Positions 8,673-17,431 of a DNA stretch of 64,000 bases are shown here, one piece after another. Source of the DNA: Chloroflexota bacterium (GTDB lineage: Bacteria > Chloroflexota > Dehalococcoidia > Lucifugimonadales > Lucifugimonadaceae); contig JADFLG010000001.1 in the NCBI GenBank assembly GCA_022564545.1, positions 1 to 64,000 of the forward strand, read 5' to 3'. Under the pieces are notes generated by a model. That model had not been told where the DNA came from, made no database searches, and saw only the letters and a list, made by a program, of their open reading frames with translations. The first letter of the stretch is position 1. Each line of letters starts with the position of its first letter. Both the position numbers and the translations under genes were made by a program.

Positions 8673-8784
8673 AACCCCGTGTCAGGACTCTTAAAGGTCA
8701 AAATGGCACTTAGTGAAAGTGCGCACAATCGATAACTGTATGTGCGGGCGCACACGTGAGCAAGCGTTGACAAGAGGGGGTAGT

Positions 8785-8853: not shown

Positions 8854-8967
8854 GCTCCGGGCAACTCGCGGGGATGCGCGAGACTATAGGAACGTTCAAC
8901 TGCATCGCACGTGGCTCCGTTGACACGATTGAAATACGCTTTGAATCCACCACGTAACGCAATCGCT

Positions 8968-9082
8968 GTCATTCTGTGGGTCAGACCCGGCCAGCAAATA
9001 CCAGCACTAATATCGTCACTGTCATTCCGTGGGTCAGGCCTGGCCACGAAATACCAGCATTAATATCACCACTGTCATTCCG
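8968..9082. repeat. 53-bp tandem repeat, two copies plus a partial third
   Basis: tgtcattc(t/c)gtgggtcag(a/g)cc(c/t)ggcca..aaataccagca(c/t)taatatc..cac at 8968-9020 and 9021-9073, then tgtcattcc. Confidence 0.85.
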
Positions 9083-9192
9083 ACTGGAACGGAGGAATCT
9101 AACGTCGGCATGCCGCCAGTAACCGCACGAACGCAACAACCTGTTCGCGTCCGGCAGCCGTCACCTGCATCGTCCGCTCGAACGTCCACACG

Positions 9193-9414
9193 GTATCCCA
9201 CGCCAGATCGCAGCACGAACGAAAGAATCCCGGCAGACGTGCGGAACTGAAGAAGCGAAGCGACGCGTTCAAAGAGTCGGAGAGACGGAAGCGCGGGTTC
9301 GGAACGGTCAAACCCGGAGTGTTCGCCGGTGAGCGGCGCAAAGGCGGCCTGATCGGCGCACCGCCCTCCACAAAACTCTGGACGGGCTCAAAGCAAAAGA
9401 GGTTGTTCACTTGA
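9193..9414 (+). pseudogene. Leader ORF L1: 73-codon open frame overlapping the HAD gene start (no evident start codon)
   Basis: VSHARSQHERKNPGRRAELKKRSDAFKESERRKRGFGTVKPGVFAGERRKGGLIGAPPSTKLWTGSKQKRLFT*; protein-level similarity to L2 at 15513-15725; stop TGA overlaps TTG start at 9411. Confidence 0.6.
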
Positions 9415-10031
9415 CCAATAACCAGATCAAGCTGGCAGTATTCGATGTCGATGGAACCCTTTTGCGCGGCGACACGGCGTGTCTCTGGATTGCCCGGCGA
9501 CTCAGCAAGTACGACCGAATGCTCGAATTGGAGCAATCGCGTGGCAAGCCCGACGTGAGTGCAGCACGTGAAGAGATGGCGTCGTGGTACAGGGGGTCGA
9601 CACCCGACGCACTGCTGGCCGATCTCGAAGGGTTCCCATGGGCACCCGGGCTGTTCGAAGGGATGCGGATGCTGCGCGACGCGGGCGTGAAAATAGCACT
9701 CGCTTCCGTGGGCTGGGAATTCGTAGTCAAAAGAATCGCCGAAGAAATTGGCGCTCAGTGGACACTGGCCACAAAACTCGATTTTTCGACTGGTGATATC
9801 GGCCACGCGTGGAGCGAGCACAAGGTAACGTTCGCATCTGACCTGGCGACCGAGTTGAAAATCGACCATGAGTCTATCGCGGCTGTAGGAGATAGCGACG
9901 GCGACTCCCAAATGCTCGACTACGCGGGTCTCGCAATCTTCGTCGGTCCTTCACTCCCGCCAGGCAAAAATTACCTGCATATGCCGTCGGCCGACATACG
10001 TGATATCGCGGCAGCGATTCTCAAGGGCTGA
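9411..10031 (+). CDS. HAD-superfamily (SerB-like, HAD-IB) phosphatase
   Basis: FDVDGTLLRGDTACLWI; VGDSDGDSQMLDYAGLAIFVG; TTG start. Confidence 0.88.
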   Translation: MTNNQIKLAVFDVDGTLLRGDTACLWIARRLSKYDRMLELEQSRGKPDVSAAREEMASWYRGSTPDALLADLEGFPWAPGLFEGMRMLRDAGVKIALASVGWEFVVKRIAEEIGAQWTLATKLDFSTGDIGHAWSEHKVTFASDLATELKIDHESIAAVGDSDGDSQMLDYAGLAIFVGPSLPPGKNYLHMPSADIRDIAAAILKG

Positions 10032-10339: not shown

Positions 10340-10408
10340 GTTTGCTTGCGAGTGGCGGGGGATTGCAATGGATGTAACCCCCAATCCGCTATCGGGTACG
10401 TCAAACGG
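10340..10408 (+). repeat. Dispersed palindromic repeat, copy B
   Basis: gtttgcttgcgagtggcgggggattgcaatggatgtaacccccaatccgctatcgggtacgtcaaacgg; outer CCGTTTG..CAAACGG and inner GGATTG..CAATCC arms. Confidence 0.8.
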
Positions 10409-10500: not shown

Positions 10501-12600
10501 TTATTCAATCGCCGCCGGTCGTTGGCGGGCAGATCGTCGCCACGCGTACAAACCCAGTATCAGAATGACCCCGATCAGAACCCAAACAAGTTGCTGAACT
10601 GGAACGACCTGTTCGATAACGCCTGCAGGTGCACCGAACTGTTCCAACAACTCAAGCCGCTGTTGCAGATTCGCGATTTGACTCTCCTGGGCCGCTATCT
10701 GGGCTTCCCTCTCGTCCACTATCTGGTAGAGACCCTGGATCGCCGCCAGCGCCACACCGTCTGCATCTACCACACTGATGCGCCGCTCGTCCTCGCCCAC
10801 GCCGAATGCCGCCGCGAAATCCTGAGCTGCCGGGCCGATGTGCCGCACGCCATCCTGGGTCTTGTAGCTGTATGTGGCGATCGGAACGCCAAGCAGCCGT
10901 TCGAGGATCTCCCTTTGATTCACCGCCGAGAAGTTGGTTTTTGCGTTGCGGTCGCTGAGCGATGAGAAGGACCCGGAGCCAGCAGGCAGAGTCACACCGG
11001 TGGTTGCGCCGGGGTCCGAGAAAAAGGTCATCCCACCGGATGCACGTACAACGAACTGGTCAGGCCCGGTCGATGAAAGTGCCGAACCGGTCGAGTCGGC
11101 CCACACGAACGTCCCGTTGTCGACCGCTTTGGCCTTGAGACCGGCCGCGACGCTGAAAGCGCCAGAAGCCTCATTCTGCTGGCCTCCGGGGACCGTTGAG
11201 TACAGCCCGCTCGCCAGGTTGTCCTTACCGCCACCAACGGTAGCCCACCGGCCGGAAGACGTGTTCGACTCACCGCCGCCAACGGTGGCGAACTCGTCAC
11301 TTGCCGCATTGCCCGCGCCACCGCCCACGACCGAGGATAATCCTCCGGCAGTGTTGAATCCCCCGCCGCCGACCGTCGATCTAACGCCAGCGGCGGTGTT
11401 GCTGTCGCCGCCGCCAATGCTCGCACTACCACCGTAGGTCTCGTTGAACTGACCTCCCCCAATAACCGACAAAGCTCCACCTGCGTAGTTCTCTTCGCCT
11501 CCACCAATTGTGGTGGTCGACGCGTCGGCAAGGTTGAAAAAGCCGCCTCCTATCGTCGCTCCAGTTTCGAACGCTTCATTGAAAGCGCCACCGCCTATCG
11601 TCACGTTTTCCGCAAAAGCAACGACAGAGTTGCTGCTGTCACCACCTATCACGTTCGGACCGCCAACCTTCGGCTCGAGCCTGAAGGCCCGGACGCCATT
11701 TACGAAAAACTCGAGCGGCTGGTCGTCGGTCGTTCCAACGAAATCGATCCCGGCGGTCGTCCCTGCGTTGCCGTCAAGGGACCACGTGCCGGCCCCGGTG
11801 GACGGAAGACCGGCTGACCCTGGTTTTCCTTGAGGTCCTTCAATGCCAGGCGCACCAGGAGCACCGTCAGCGCCTGCTGGTCCTGCCGGTCCCGTTGGTC
11901 CGCCGGCGCCCGCCGGACCGAAGATCGCCCAGGAAATCGCGGTTTCATTCTGCTTGCAATCCAGTGGGCCATCAACGATTCGGATGTTTTTCTTCTTGGC
12001 ACAAGCGTGGATGGTGTCGGCACTCGCGGTACTGTCGGCAGCCCCGGAGGCCTCACCGTTGTACTGCATGATCAGCTTTTGTGGGTCGCCGAGCTCACAG
12101 AGAGGTCCCGAAAAATCCCCGGCGTCTTCTCCCTCGTCGTTGACGAAACCCACGATCACGAGACTTCCAAACTGGTCCCCCAGGGTCAGGTCCCGGGAAC
12201 AGGACGTGTGAAACTCAACCGTCTGGATGAGTTCGTCCGCATTCGAGTTCGGTGGGGCACTGAAGACGAACACGTGCGTGGTCGACGAAAGCTTAGTCGA
12301 TCCTGCCAGCAAAGCATCGATAGTGAACTCTCCGCCAAGCTCGACAATTCCGTCGAACCAAACTTTGGCGGCAGGGTCGCTCGGAGCGGACTTATTGGTC
12401 GCCAGAATGCGTACCGGAGTAGTGAACGCCGGGTCGCCGGTCACAATAACTTTTTTGTCGCCGTTGTGGTCGTCCCCGCCACCGCCCTGGCTTGGGTTGG
12501 CGAACACGTCGCCACCAACCGTGAAGATAGCGGCTGCGACACCCAACAGCGCTACGAAACGAACCACGTCCAGGAATCTGATCGATGTGAAGAAACGCAT
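10501..12600 (-). CDS. Large surface protein: signal/TM N-term, collagen-like Gly-X-Y segment, YadA-head-like (IGGG..N) repeats, S74-type intramolecular chaperone domain, coiled coil, C-terminal TM
   Basis: GPTGPAGPAGADGAPGAPGIEGPQGKPG; about ten ~15-aa repeats of type TIGGGxxNxAxGxxS; SDRNAKTNFSAVNQREILERLLGVPIATYSYKTQ (S74); VWVLIGVILILGLYAWRRSARQR. Confidence 0.85.
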   Translation of the reverse strand: MRFFTSIRFLDVVRFVALLGVAAAIFTVGGDVFANPSQGGGGDDHNGDKKVIVTGDPAFTTPVRILATNKSAPSDPAAKVWFDGIVELGGEFTIDALLAGSTKLSSTTHVFVFSAPPNSNADELIQTVEFHTSCSRDLTLGDQFGSLVIVGFVNDEGEDAGDFSGPLCELGDPQKLIMQYNGEASGAADSTASADTIHACAKKKNIRIVDGPLDCKQNETAISWAIFGPAGAGGPTGPAGPAGADGAPGAPGIEGPQGKPGSAGLPSTGAGTWSLDGNAGTTAGIDFVGTTDDQPLEFFVNGVRAFRLEPKVGGPNVIGGDSSNSVVAFAENVTIGGGAFNEAFETGATIGGGFFNLADASTTTIGGGEENYAGGALSVIGGGQFNETYGGSASIGGGDSNTAAGVRSTVGGGGFNTAGGLSSVVGGGAGNAASDEFATVGGGESNTSSGRWATVGGGKDNLASGLYSTVPGGQQNEASGAFSVAAGLKAKAVDNGTFVWADSTGSALSSTGPDQFVVRASGGMTFFSDPGATTGVTLPAGSGSFSSLSDRNAKTNFSAVNQREILERLLGVPIATYSYKTQDGVRHIGPAAQDFAAAFGVGEDERRISVVDADGVALAAIQGLYQIVDEREAQIAAQESQIANLQQRLELLEQFGAPAGVIEQVVPVQQLVWVLIGVILILGLYAWRRSARQRPAAIE

Positions 12601-12825: not shown

Positions 12826-13209
12826 ATGACCCACGACAAAAGCGAACCTCCGTGGCTTCGTTGGGGGCAGGGAATTGCAGGCGATAGCCCAGAACGGCCT
12901 GGCGTTTGATGCAAATCCGTACGATGTAGAGCGCTGTCAGCAAATCCGTTCGATCGCCGCCGAAATGATTGCCCCACATGTCGATGCTGATGCGGACACC
13001 GTAGTCGACTACTTTCTGCAAGAGACCGGCTACGCGACGCCAAAGCTCGACTGCCGCGGCGTTGTCTGGAACCCCGACGGCAAGGCCCTGCTCGTCAAAG
13101 GGACTGCCGACGAAAAATGGACTCTGCCCGGCGGGTGGATGGACGTCAACCTGACGCCCGCGGAAAACGTCGAGCGAGAGATTCTGGAGGAGTCAGGACT
13201 CACCACTCG
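12826..13209 (+). pseudogene. NUDIX hydrolase pseudogene (1-nt insertion frameshift near 12869 plus 3' truncation); paralog of 14144-14773
   Basis: MTHDKSEPPWLRWGQ... then ORF 12875 frame continues LQAIAQNGLAFDANPYDVERCQQIRSIAAEMIAPHV...GGWMDVNLTPAENVEREILEESGLTTR; copy1 TTGGGGGCAGGG vs copy2 TTGGGGGCGGG. Confidence 0.85.
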
Positions 13210-13355: not shown

Positions 13356-13970
13356 ATGCAGGTAATCCAGGCGAATTTCTCATCCACCAATTGGAGCGGC
13401 CGCCGGAAGCTGCTCGTCGCCGGTGCGGTCATGTTCATCGCTCTGGTGCTGGCTTTCTACGACGATGTCCACGTTGACCCGGGCACCGTCCTCACGTTCG
13501 GATACGTTGCGGTTTTCATCATCCCGATGATCGCCAGCCTGACCTTACTGTTCCCACTACCAGTGTTTCCAATCATCTTCCTTGCTGGAAGCATGCTGGA
13601 CCCGGTCACCACAGGGCTCCTGGCGGCAGCCGGAATGACTGTTGGGATGGCCGCCACATACTTCGTCGCCGCCTCGGGTCAGGACGCTGTACAGAGTTCC
13701 ATCGCCAACCGGAGCGGAATTGCAGGACGCCTGGCGCAAAAGTTCCTGGGTGGTTTCGAGCGCCGGCCGGCCCTTGCGTCGTTCTTGATGTCTGCGATTC
13801 CGGGTCCGCATTTTTCGTTCTCCGGTCTGGTAGCCGGCGCCGCGGGAGTCCCGTGGCGGACCTACTTCCTTTACACGTTTCTTGGCAGAATTGTAGTCAT
13901 GCTGCCGTTGGCATTCGCAGGCAAGTTCGCCGCCGAGAAGGTCCAATCGCTCGGCTGGATCACCGTGTGA
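13356..13970 (+). CDS. VTT/DedA-like integral membrane protein
   Basis: Multi-TM; FPIIFLAGSMLDPVTTGLLAAAGMTVGMAATYFVA, SAIPGPHFSFSGLVAGAAGVPWRTYFLYTFLGR. Confidence 0.7.
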   Translation: MQVIQANFSSTNWSGRRKLLVAGAVMFIALVLAFYDDVHVDPGTVLTFGYVAVFIIPMIASLTLLFPLPVFPIIFLAGSMLDPVTTGLLAAAGMTVGMAATYFVAASGQDAVQSSIANRSGIAGRLAQKFLGGFERRPALASFLMSAIPGPHFSFSGLVAGAAGVPWRTYFLYTFLGRIVVMLPLAFAGKFAAEKVQSLGWITV

Positions 13971-14000: not shown

Positions 14001-14070
14001 GTTTGCTTGCGTGTGAGGTGGGATTGCACCGGGCGTCAACCGCTGTCCGCTACCGGATATGTCACTGGGC
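14001..14070 (+). repeat. Dispersed palindromic repeat, copy C (diverged)
   Basis: gtttgcttgcgtgtgaggtgggattgcaccgggcgtcaaccgctgtccgctaccggatatgtcactgggc. Confidence 0.7.
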
Positions 14071-14143
14071 GAACGCCACGTAGTGCAACATCGTCCCATT
14101 GCTTCACGTCTGATTCGGTGTTGCCAATAGCTACAATCCAACC

Positions 14144-14773
14144 ATGACCCACGATAAAAGCGAACCTCCGTGGCTTCGTTGGGGGCGGGAATTGCAGGCG
14201 ATAGCCCAGAACGGCCTCGCGTTTGATGCAAATCCGTACGATGTAGAGCGCTATCAGCAAATACGTTCGATCGCCGCCGAAATGATTGCCCCACATGTCG
14301 ATGCCGATGCGGATACCGTCGTCGATTACTTTCTGAAAGAGACCGGCTACGCGACGCCAAAAATCGATTGCCGGGGCGTTGTCTGGAACACCGATGGCAA
14401 AGTCCTGCTCGTCAAAGGGACTGCCGACGAAAAATGGACGCTGCCCGGGGGATGGATGGACGTCAACTATTCACCTGCAGAGAACGTCGAACGGGAGATC
14501 CTGGAGGAGTCAGGCCTCGCCACTCGGGCGACGAGAATAATCGCCCTGTATGACAAACGAAAACACTACCATCGCATCGTTCACATCTACCAGGTCTTTT
14601 TCGAATGCCTGCTGATAAGCGGTGAACTCCGTACGAGCACCGAGACATCAGACGTCGGGTTCTTTGGCCGGGACGAGATTCCAGAACTTTCTCTCGAACG
14701 TGTATCTCCGGATCAACTCACGCAGGCATTTCACTTCCACGACAACCCGGACGCCCCCCTAATATTCGATTGA
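14144..14773 (+). CDS. NUDIX hydrolase with N-terminal extension (intact copy)
   Basis: GGWMDVNYSPAENVEREILEESG NUDIX box; N-terminal DUF4743-like LQAIAQNGLAFDANPYDVERYQQIR. Confidence 0.92.
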   Translation: MTHDKSEPPWLRWGRELQAIAQNGLAFDANPYDVERYQQIRSIAAEMIAPHVDADADTVVDYFLKETGYATPKIDCRGVVWNTDGKVLLVKGTADEKWTLPGGWMDVNYSPAENVEREILEESGLATRATRIIALYDKRKHYHRIVHIYQVFFECLLISGELRTSTETSDVGFFGRDEIPELSLERVSPDQLTQAFHFHDNPDAPLIFD

Positions 14774-14958
14774 TTCGATTCAACGGAAAAGTGGATCGAA
14801 ACCCCTGACAAATATTAGTTGAAATTACCGCGCCATCCACCTCCTCAAAACACGACCTGGGCGACCCGTATTATCAGGAAGGTCCATAGTGCTGCCGCCG
14901 ATCCGAGCGCACATTGCCACGCGACGACCATGTTGCGGAACATTCAGGGAGGTCGAAG

Positions 14959-15512: not shown

Positions 15513-15725
15513 GTGTCTCACGCTCGCCTGCAGCATGAGCGGGAGAATCCTCGCAAACGTGAAAGACTGAACAAAGAACAGGAAGCGTTCGACAAACGGA
15601 AGTAACCGCGATTCGGCTCGGCACCAATCGGCGTGTTTGCAGGATTACTACGCACCAGGCTGATCGGCACACAACCATTCAAGAAACTCTGGAAGCAATC
15701 AAAGCAAAAGAGGTTGTTTAAGTGA
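15513..15725 (+). pseudogene. Leader ORF L2: GTG start, in-frame TAA at 15603-15605, open again to TGA overlapping the NUDIX start
   Basis: VSHARLQHERENPRKRERLNKEQEAFDKRK*PRFGSAPIGVFAGLLRTRLIGTQPFKKLWKQSKQKRLFK*. Confidence 0.65.
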
Positions 15726-16132
15726 GCGCGACGCCAGTCATGAGATTTTCCGGTGTTGTGCTATGGAAGGAAGACCTTGTTCTTCTGCAGAAACGATCTT
15801 TTCAGGCCAAATTGTTACCGGGTCGCTGGGGAGTGTTTGGAGGGCATATTGAGGACGGTGAATCACCGATCCAAACAGCTGTGCGGGAGATCGAGGAAGA
15901 GTTGTCGGTTTCACTCGACCCAAACCAGCTGCGGGAGCTGTGCACCCTCAGGGTTCAGCGGATGAACGCACTGTATGTAGCCCACTATTACTCGTCGAGA
16001 ATTCCGGTGTCGTTGAAGGACATGTCTCTCCGAGAAGGAATCGGATTTTCACTCTGGTCGATGGATGAAATCCCGCAACTTCACCTCGCTCACGAGGATT
16101 TCACCGCCGTGCAGACTCACTTCGGTAGTTGA
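15722..16132 (+). CDS. NUDIX hydrolase
   Basis: GGHIEDGESPIQTAVREIEEEL; GTG start. Confidence 0.9.
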   Translation: MSATPVMRFSGVVLWKEDLVLLQKRSFQAKLLPGRWGVFGGHIEDGESPIQTAVREIEEELSVSLDPNQLRELCTLRVQRMNALYVAHYYSSRIPVSLKDMSLREGIGFSLWSMDEIPQLHLAHEDFTAVQTHFGS

Positions 16133-16180: not shown

Positions 16181-16207
16181 GAAGGTCACCCCTCCACCAC
16201 CGCACCC

Positions 16208-16807
16208 TCAAAACAGGGCCTGAAAGACCCGGGCTATCAGAAGGGTGAAAATCGCGATTCCCGCGCCGGCAACGCCCTGGGCCGCAATGGCCACGTTACC
16301 CCACCTTCGGCCTCTGGCTCGAAGCGTGAACACAACGACAGCACCCAGCAGGACGTATACAGGGACTGCGTTGATCGCACTCATAAGGTGCAGCGCGAGG
16401 TATTCGTTACCCTCGAATGTGGAGGCGGCTTTGGCCAGGTCGTACCTCCACGCGTCTGCGCCCGGTCCCGTTCGAGCGGCGTCAACCCACAATTGCGACA
16501 CGGCCCACGTTCGTGCGGCCAGCATCCCGAAAGCTGCGGCAAGAATGATGCCATGCCTTCCCCTGCTGACGATCGCCGCCCCGCCAACAAGTCCGACCCA
16601 ACCCAGCTCTACCAGCGGACCCGACACGGCAACGACCACACGTTGCCAATCGCTCGTGAACGGGACCACCTGGGTCACCTGCACGAATTCGTATCGAGGC
16701 CACTCGCCGGTCATCGCCTTTATCACGATGACGTGAGCCAGTTCGTGCACCGTTGCGCCTATGGCAAGTGCAGCGAACCCTGCGATCACGTATTTCAAAC
16801 GAAGCAT
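16208..16807 (-). CDS. Membrane protein with M50-like HExxH motif
   Basis: MLRLKYVIAGFAALAIGATVHELAHVIVIKAMTGEWP; several TM segments. Confidence 0.6.
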   Translation of the reverse strand: MLRLKYVIAGFAALAIGATVHELAHVIVIKAMTGEWPRYEFVQVTQVVPFTSDWQRVVVAVSGPLVELGWVGLVGGAAIVSRGRHGIILAAAFGMLAARTWAVSQLWVDAARTGPGADAWRYDLAKAASTFEGNEYLALHLMSAINAVPVYVLLGAVVVFTLRARGRRWGNVAIAAQGVAGAGIAIFTLLIARVFQALF

Positions 16808-16885
16808 CGGTCCGGAACCTAACACATATCGGCCGACGGTCTGATCGCTGGCGGTCCGGGCACACAGAGGGTTCGCCTGCCGTCG

Positions 16886-17431
16886 TTGCACCGGAACATT
16901 CTCTGTCCCAGGTGTGAGACGATATTGCGCCGTGGAGGTATTGGCCTGAGCAGGCCGGTTCTATGCGCTGCGGCGTTGTTTCTAACCATCGCAAGCGCCG
17001 CCTGCGGTTCTGATTCCGGTGCTGGCGGCGTCGCGAGTTCGGGTGATGTGAGCGAGTTTGGCTTTGAGACTTCGATCATCGCCAGTCCGGACCGCGTTTA
17101 CACGATCGACGATGTGAAGACCACCGGCTGGAAGTCATCGAAAGAATTACCGGCAGAATCGCTGCAAGGCGTTTCAGCCGTCTGGTTCGGGTTCTACCAG
17201 CAGAAAAACCTGGAAGTCTGGATCTACGGATCGCATGAAGAAGCGAAACGGCCTGGCACCGCGCCAGCCGAAGAGATCGTGGCTGCAACCCGCGGCGTGA
17301 GCGGCCGCGGGGCCGGGCCCTGCATGAAGCAGACGACCCATTTCGGGGCGTTCGGCGTGATCGGCAACCTGGTGGTCCTGTGCGAAACCGATGTGGCGGT
17401 CTGCGAGAATCTCGCCAACGCCCTGCCGTAG
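16886..17431 (+). CDS. Putative secreted lipoprotein, unknown function
   Basis: Hydrophobic N-terminal region with lipobox-like SAAC; no family recognised; start uncertain. Confidence 0.55.
   Translation: MHRNILCPRCETILRRGGIGLSRPVLCAAALFLTIASAACGSDSGAGGVASSGDVSEFGFETSIIASPDRVYTIDDVKTTGWKSSKELPAESLQGVSAVWFGFYQQKNLEVWIYGSHEEAKRPGTAPAEEIVAATRGVSGRGAGPCMKQTTHFGAFGVIGNLVVLCETDVAVCENLANALP

Follow-up and report, generated by a model that had tools for sequence, protein, structure and literature searches.

Within the IS6 family of insertion sequences, ISDsp3 of Dehalococcoides sp. BAV1 is described as the sole member for which a passenger gene has been reported, one of unknown function (PMC7986276). 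It measures 1456 bp, encodes a 319-aa transposase and has an 8-bp duplication (PMC6807381). Longer zinc-finger IS6/IS26 transposases (clade VII / clade h), found mainly in Clostridia, reach 340–353 aa and also come with an 8-bp duplication (PMC6807381, PMC7986276). Further, IS derivatives without their own transposase, originally described in work on IS231-MIC, are mobilized in trans and are termed mobile insertion cassettes (MICs) (PMC3129680).

The window considered here is a stretch of 64,000 nucleotides of a Chloroflexota bacterium (contig JADFLG010000001.1; genome G000 below). It holds two related sequences, L1 and L2, which a preliminary description had read as a family of basic leader ORFs, one ahead of a HAD phosphatase gene and the other ahead of a NUDIX gene. 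Comparison with relatives suggests that both are quite probably decayed tails of an IS6-family transposase, still carrying the ribosome-binding site (RBS) and the junction at which HAD and NUDIX start.

The parent element

In the genus member G005, contig C30 (G005:C30) carries the tail as the last part of one uninterrupted 360-aa frame, which runs from a zinc ribbon through a DDE domain into the tail. The protein matches Pfam DDE_Tnp_IS240 (5.5e-23) and an IS1/IS1595 zinc-binding (Zn) domain, and scores 129.7 bits against the NCBIfam IS6 model NF033587, for which the curated cut-off is 125 bits. The element ends in terminal inverted repeats (GGTGCCGTTTGCTTGCGGGTG / GGTTCCGTTTGCTTTAGGGTG, with the short repeats GGTGCCGTTTGC / GGTTCCGTTTGC), and TGCCCGTT stands on either side as an 8-bp target duplication, the usual size in the IS6 family (PMC7986276). 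Transposase score, short terminal inverted repeats and duplication together assign it to that family. Within the ends, which enclose about 2.3 kb, the order is a 171-aa ORF, the transposase and a 185-aa ORF that overlaps the transposase stop (ATGA); a transposase accompanied by two passenger genes in this way corresponds to a transporter IS (tIS). The passenger proteins were assigned to no confident Pfam or PADLOC family.

A full-length relative of the transposase (53% identity) with a similar tail (SHHRSPTERERQTKRLG...) is present in L088, from another genus of the same family, where the right end repeat directly follows the transposase stop with no passenger gene between. Because L088 and G005:C30 have the same kind of tail, it is a true extension of the transposases in this branch. 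As judged from sequence, the tail is the basic C-terminal part, about 75 residues long, of a zinc-ribbon/DDE transposase of the IS6 family, and the parent would be a small transposon with passenger genes between transposase and right end. Only one intact full-length parent with this tail, that of G005:C30, was found.

Like ISDsp3, the G005:C30 element is an IS6-family element with a passenger gene and an 8-bp target duplication. Compared by description only, it differs from ISDsp3 in its larger size, its two passengers, its intact zinc ribbon and a basic C-terminal tail that ends in the RBS of the next gene. With clade VII / clade h it shares the N-terminal zinc finger, the DDE domain and the 8-bp duplication; those transposases are described as N-terminally extended, in passages that do not mention a C-terminal tail, whereas G005:C30 has one.

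Decayed copies in the window

L1 occupies 9169..9411 on the plus strand and is 69% identical to residues 281–360 of the G005:C30 transposase (E 8.5e-29); the homology begins a little upstream of 9193, from which L1 had originally been drawn. L2 (15513..15719, plus strand) is a second tail remnant with an in-frame TAA at 15603–15605, indels and a conserved 3′ end that bears the RBS. The proposed homology of the two is well supported: tblastn gives 57% protein identity across residues 1–72 (E = 5.2e-15), the local DNA alignment reaches a score of 73, whereas none of 2000 codon-shuffled controls exceeds 30, and the final 66 nt are 79% identical. Throughout the L1 frame, from the upstream in-frame stop to codon 1, there is no ATG, GTG or TTG, and GTA stands where L2 has GTG, as had been observed; lacking a start codon, L1 is an open frame and not a complete ORF. 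Owing to its TAA and indels, L2 is not an ORF over its full length either. Complete ORFs with a start codon are present in G005:C1, G007 and G012 and absent from both window copies, which contain the tail alone, without an intact transposase between terminal repeats.

No close full-length copy of the transposase was found in G000. Two further remnants occur in this genome, a partial one on contig C193, in which the RBS has changed to GTGG and no start is coupled, and a 45-bp fragment on contig C82 (L003 1501–1545). The latter adjoins a decayed IS3-like transposase fragment (about 1560–1710; HSDRGVQYLPVRYPERL...).

Other repeats and fragments surround the window copies. R65, a 69-bp palindromic MITE-like repeat whose ends resemble the transposon terminal inverted repeats, lies left of L1 (8785..8853, plus strand). 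Its second copy, 88% identical and in the same orientation, lies right of HAD (10340..10408, plus strand; ends GTTCCGTTTGC...CAAACGGTTCC), and a third (80% identity) is at 14001..14069, also on the plus strand. Abutting R65 on the minus strand at 14064..14104 is a 3′ fragment of the transposase body (KQWDDVALRGVRPV). At the DNA level it matches over 41 nt without gaps, with changes at third positions, and its protein score is 61 compared with a shuffled maximum of 51. A probable remnant of the 5′ leader of the element (ATGCGCGAgACT...GTTCAAC), with its ATG lost, is at 8874..8900 (plus strand), from a weak alignment to G005:C1 whose score is reached by 4 of 1000 shuffles. Between it and L1 lies a tandem REP-like repeat (8963..9068, plus strand; repeat family D7). 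The 699-aa protein encoded on the minus strand at 10501–12600 has GPAG repeats like those of collagen, repeated GGG motifs and a C-terminus that resembles, from sequence alone, an S74-type chaperone domain.

A probable start signal within the last tail codons

A GAGG RBS lies within the tail codons of L1 at 9399..9402 (plus strand), 8 nt before the TTG start of HAD, and within L2 at 15710..15713 (plus strand), 8 nt before the GTG start of NUDIX. L1 and L2 both close with AAGCAAAAGAGGTTGTT, after which the stop and the next start form a 4-nt overlap: TGA at 9412–9414 with the TTG at 9411 (TTGA) in L1, and TGA at 15723–15725 with the GTG at 15722 (GTGA) in L2. The preliminary description had reported this GAGG-bearing 3′ end and both overlaps, and they are plainly visible in the sequence. 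GAG[G/A]TTG is kept in all five intact-frame tails and also in L2.

A 4-nt stop/start overlap combined with an RBS inside the upstream frame is the arrangement of a coupled gene pair. The last tail codons (AAG CAA CGG AGG TTG TTT ACN TGA) double as a Shine–Dalgarno site and an NTGA overlap, so that the tail would serve as the point from which any following gene is translated, probably in a coupled manner; that the RBS and the coupling are used in vivo is what we infer from this anatomy. In the intact transposon, translation of the passenger would be coupled to that of the transposase, and in truncated units to that of the tail ORF. The earlier idea of a module supplying an RBS and translational coupling fits the anatomy of five copies. 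Since the window tails cannot be translated from a start of their own, only the RBS and start junction could still act there, and dependence of HAD translation on that of L1 is unlikely, given that L1 has no start.

GAGGTTGTT was also considered as a genus-wide start signal and rejected: two of its four window occurrences are L1 and L2, and the other two are without a convincing gene start. It is present at the HAD gene of G009.

Truncated copies beside yceD

In G005:C1, G007 and G012, the catalytic body is missing and the tail forms an ORF that begins with ATG (MFNIQAPITHRASHARSQ..., MHEFPHHNTQPNSPPRSQ... and MRDTARMTTNPGRR...; 83 aa in G005:C1). These tails are found at the locus of L1, by the promoter of the divergent yceD-rpmF-fabD operon. 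The insertion slot is marked in the window by the conserved promoter-proximal box of this operon (8753..8771, minus strand), which is present upstream of yceD (DUF177) in most genus members. The gene after the tail codes for an 82-aa protein in G005:C1 and for a 263-aa one in G007. The G012 tail is followed by a possibly spurious 47-aa ORF, which is overlapped by a membrane-protein ORF on the opposite strand. In several relatives, an internal deletion would have taken out the catalytic body and left the leader, the tail ORF, the RBS and the downstream gene.

Among the points against the transposase-tail reading, the left ends of the yceD-locus copies are degenerate. Direct repeats of about 20–35 bp flank the tail–gene units of G005:C1 and G012 (L055 3274–3308/3900–3934 and L054 near 7256/8277) and exceed an 8-bp target duplication. 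The spot beside the yceD promoter is a preferred insertion slot.

The downstream genes might travel as genuine cassette cargo, mobilized along with the tail by a transposase that works in trans on the end repeats, in the style of a mobile insertion cassette. In favour of this, right-end repeats close the units at their far side in G005:C1, G007 and G012, and R65 repeats lie on both sides of L1-HAD. The end-repeat pattern is also rare, with ten matches in 19 genomes; nine genomes contain it, and in six of these it lies within about 1.7 kb of yceD, a count somewhat favoured because yceD loci helped define the pattern. However, no matching 8-bp target duplication was found around L1-HAD, and the homologues of the two window genes, described below, also argue against cargo, which we regard as doubtful.

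Transposon-end-like repeats occur upstream of yceD in G008, G010, G014, G015 and G017 as well (L061, L062, L069, L059 and L060), all roughly equally far from the promoter box and continuing into differing sequence. A small Cys-containing membrane protein follows the repeat in G008, and its relative does so in G010. G005:C1 also has a second tail-like 3′ end, a degenerate one (GATCAAAGCAACCGAGGTTGCATACGTGAG), which lies downstream of its first unit (L055 4252–4285).

Origin of the genes downstream of L1 and L2

The gene after L1 encodes a HAD-IB family phosphatase (9411..10031, plus strand; PF12710, E 4.4e-18). HAD homologues are located near yceD (about 2 kb) in G009, G012 and G013, where the tail is not directly ahead of them, and those of G009 and G012 lie behind a cation-efflux-type gene. 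HAD is thus resident at the yceD locus in three relatives, which argues that in G000 the tail became fused to it and that it is not cargo. The RBS of the G009 HAD gene (AAAAGAGGTTGTTC) is identical over 14 nt to the end of L1. With such like RBS sequences in the tail end and at the resident HAD gene, a deletion between them would yield the exact junction, and L1-HAD may be the product of a deletion of this kind.

The gene after L2 encodes a NUDIX hydrolase (15722..16132, plus strand; PF00293, E 2.7e-13), a homologue of which (67% identity) lies behind birA in G012:C2 without the module. The term 'captured genes' is therefore wrong or unproven for the window.

Two neighbouring window copies of the NUDIX gene, at 12864–13163 and 14181–14480, are 91% identical over 300 nt; the first is apparently interrupted by a membrane-protein ORF (13356–13970), and this is a local duplication. 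The 41 bp at 16206–16246, where a minus-strand gene for a membrane protein (16208–16891) has its 3′ end, recur at 14843–14883 (76%), so that the methyltransferase-L2-NUDIX block sits between direct repeats.

Selection on the tail

Compared in pairs, the five open tails give dN/dS values of 0.12–0.31, which remain similar when the last ten codons are dropped. The tail was therefore selected as protein, in agreement with the past protein selection first argued from synonymous differences between L1 and L2. Third-position identity is 0.68 in the last eight codons compared with 0.41 in the preceding 14 (a small sample), as expected if the RBS was kept. This gradient would also suit a conserved DNA or RNA element, such as an RBS enhancer, as the source of the likeness of L1 and L2 without any protein ancestry. 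Such an element is hardly conceivable, however, in view of the in-frame fusion to the transposase and of dN/dS values well below 1 even without the last ten codons.

The tail ORF may instead encode a small protein with a function of its own, such as a DNA-binding accessory or a trans-acting inhibitor of transposition, which selection has kept after truncation, the window copies being recent losses. The body-less copies (G005:C1, G007 and G012) have dN/dS of 0.17–0.25 and synonymous divergence of 0.88–1.17, similar to the 0.85–0.96 of host fabD and yceD, and a 12-codon distance from ATG to tail is common to G005:C1 and G007, suggesting a common truncated ancestor. These observations hint at selection after truncation. 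However, selection on the tail in full-length parents would leave an equal signal, and the G012 tail has diverged less from the tail of the full-length G005:C30 transposase (dS 0.58) than from that of G005:C1 (dS 0.88). Moreover, the tail is missing in most of the genus, and neither window copy encodes a full tail. We consider an independent small protein unlikely. The same low expectation applies to its extension, in which a self-standing selected small protein and the RBS/overlap junction would form a portable 'expression adaptor' joined to varied genes at a preferred slot next to the yceD operon. The ATG-started tail ORFs of the three relatives are the part of the proposed 'undescribed small-protein family' that stands; the sequence itself is that of an IS6-like transposase tail, and the copies in the window are decayed.

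Distribution

Further homologues, whose existence the preliminary description had left to be checked, were found in the genus, and the genes downstream of them differ. In a protein search of 60 relatives, tail homologues were confined to the genus, in 4 genomes; a profile search of 19 genus members returned the same 4, with the tail missing in 15. The profile found no tail relative beyond G000 in a sample of 393 genomes of the class. A scan of genome_contigs for the tail gave one record, JABMNN010000134. Viral contigs held no tail relative, matched the transposase only over a 26-residue zinc ribbon and contained no relative of the 263-aa passenger protein. Among plasmid records, only distant transposases annotated as IS6/IS3 matched, with <30% identity among the matches listed, and among solved structures, only retroviral integrase matched the DDE part, weakly.

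Six of the seven copies with a 3′ end adjoin a different gene or ORF. The genes coupled to the tail are those for the 82-aa, 263-aa and 185-aa proteins, HAD and NUDIX.

Implications

In the terms of PMC3129680, the G005:C30 element resembles by analogy a transporter IS, and its derivatives resemble mobile insertion cassettes. Unlike MICs as described there, the tail units keep a piece of the transposase frame upstream of the gene. What is new is a basic tail that contains an RBS and has outlasted the catalytic body.

The locus adds a Chloroflexota passenger-gene transposon of IS6 type beside ISDsp3, the sole case given for the family in the account cited above. It is also a clear case of transposon debris with the look of a 'leader peptide family'. 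In a simple way, a neighbouring gene can receive its RBS and start junction ready-made from a transposon, and because the signal lies inside the last transposase codons, it survives internal deletion.
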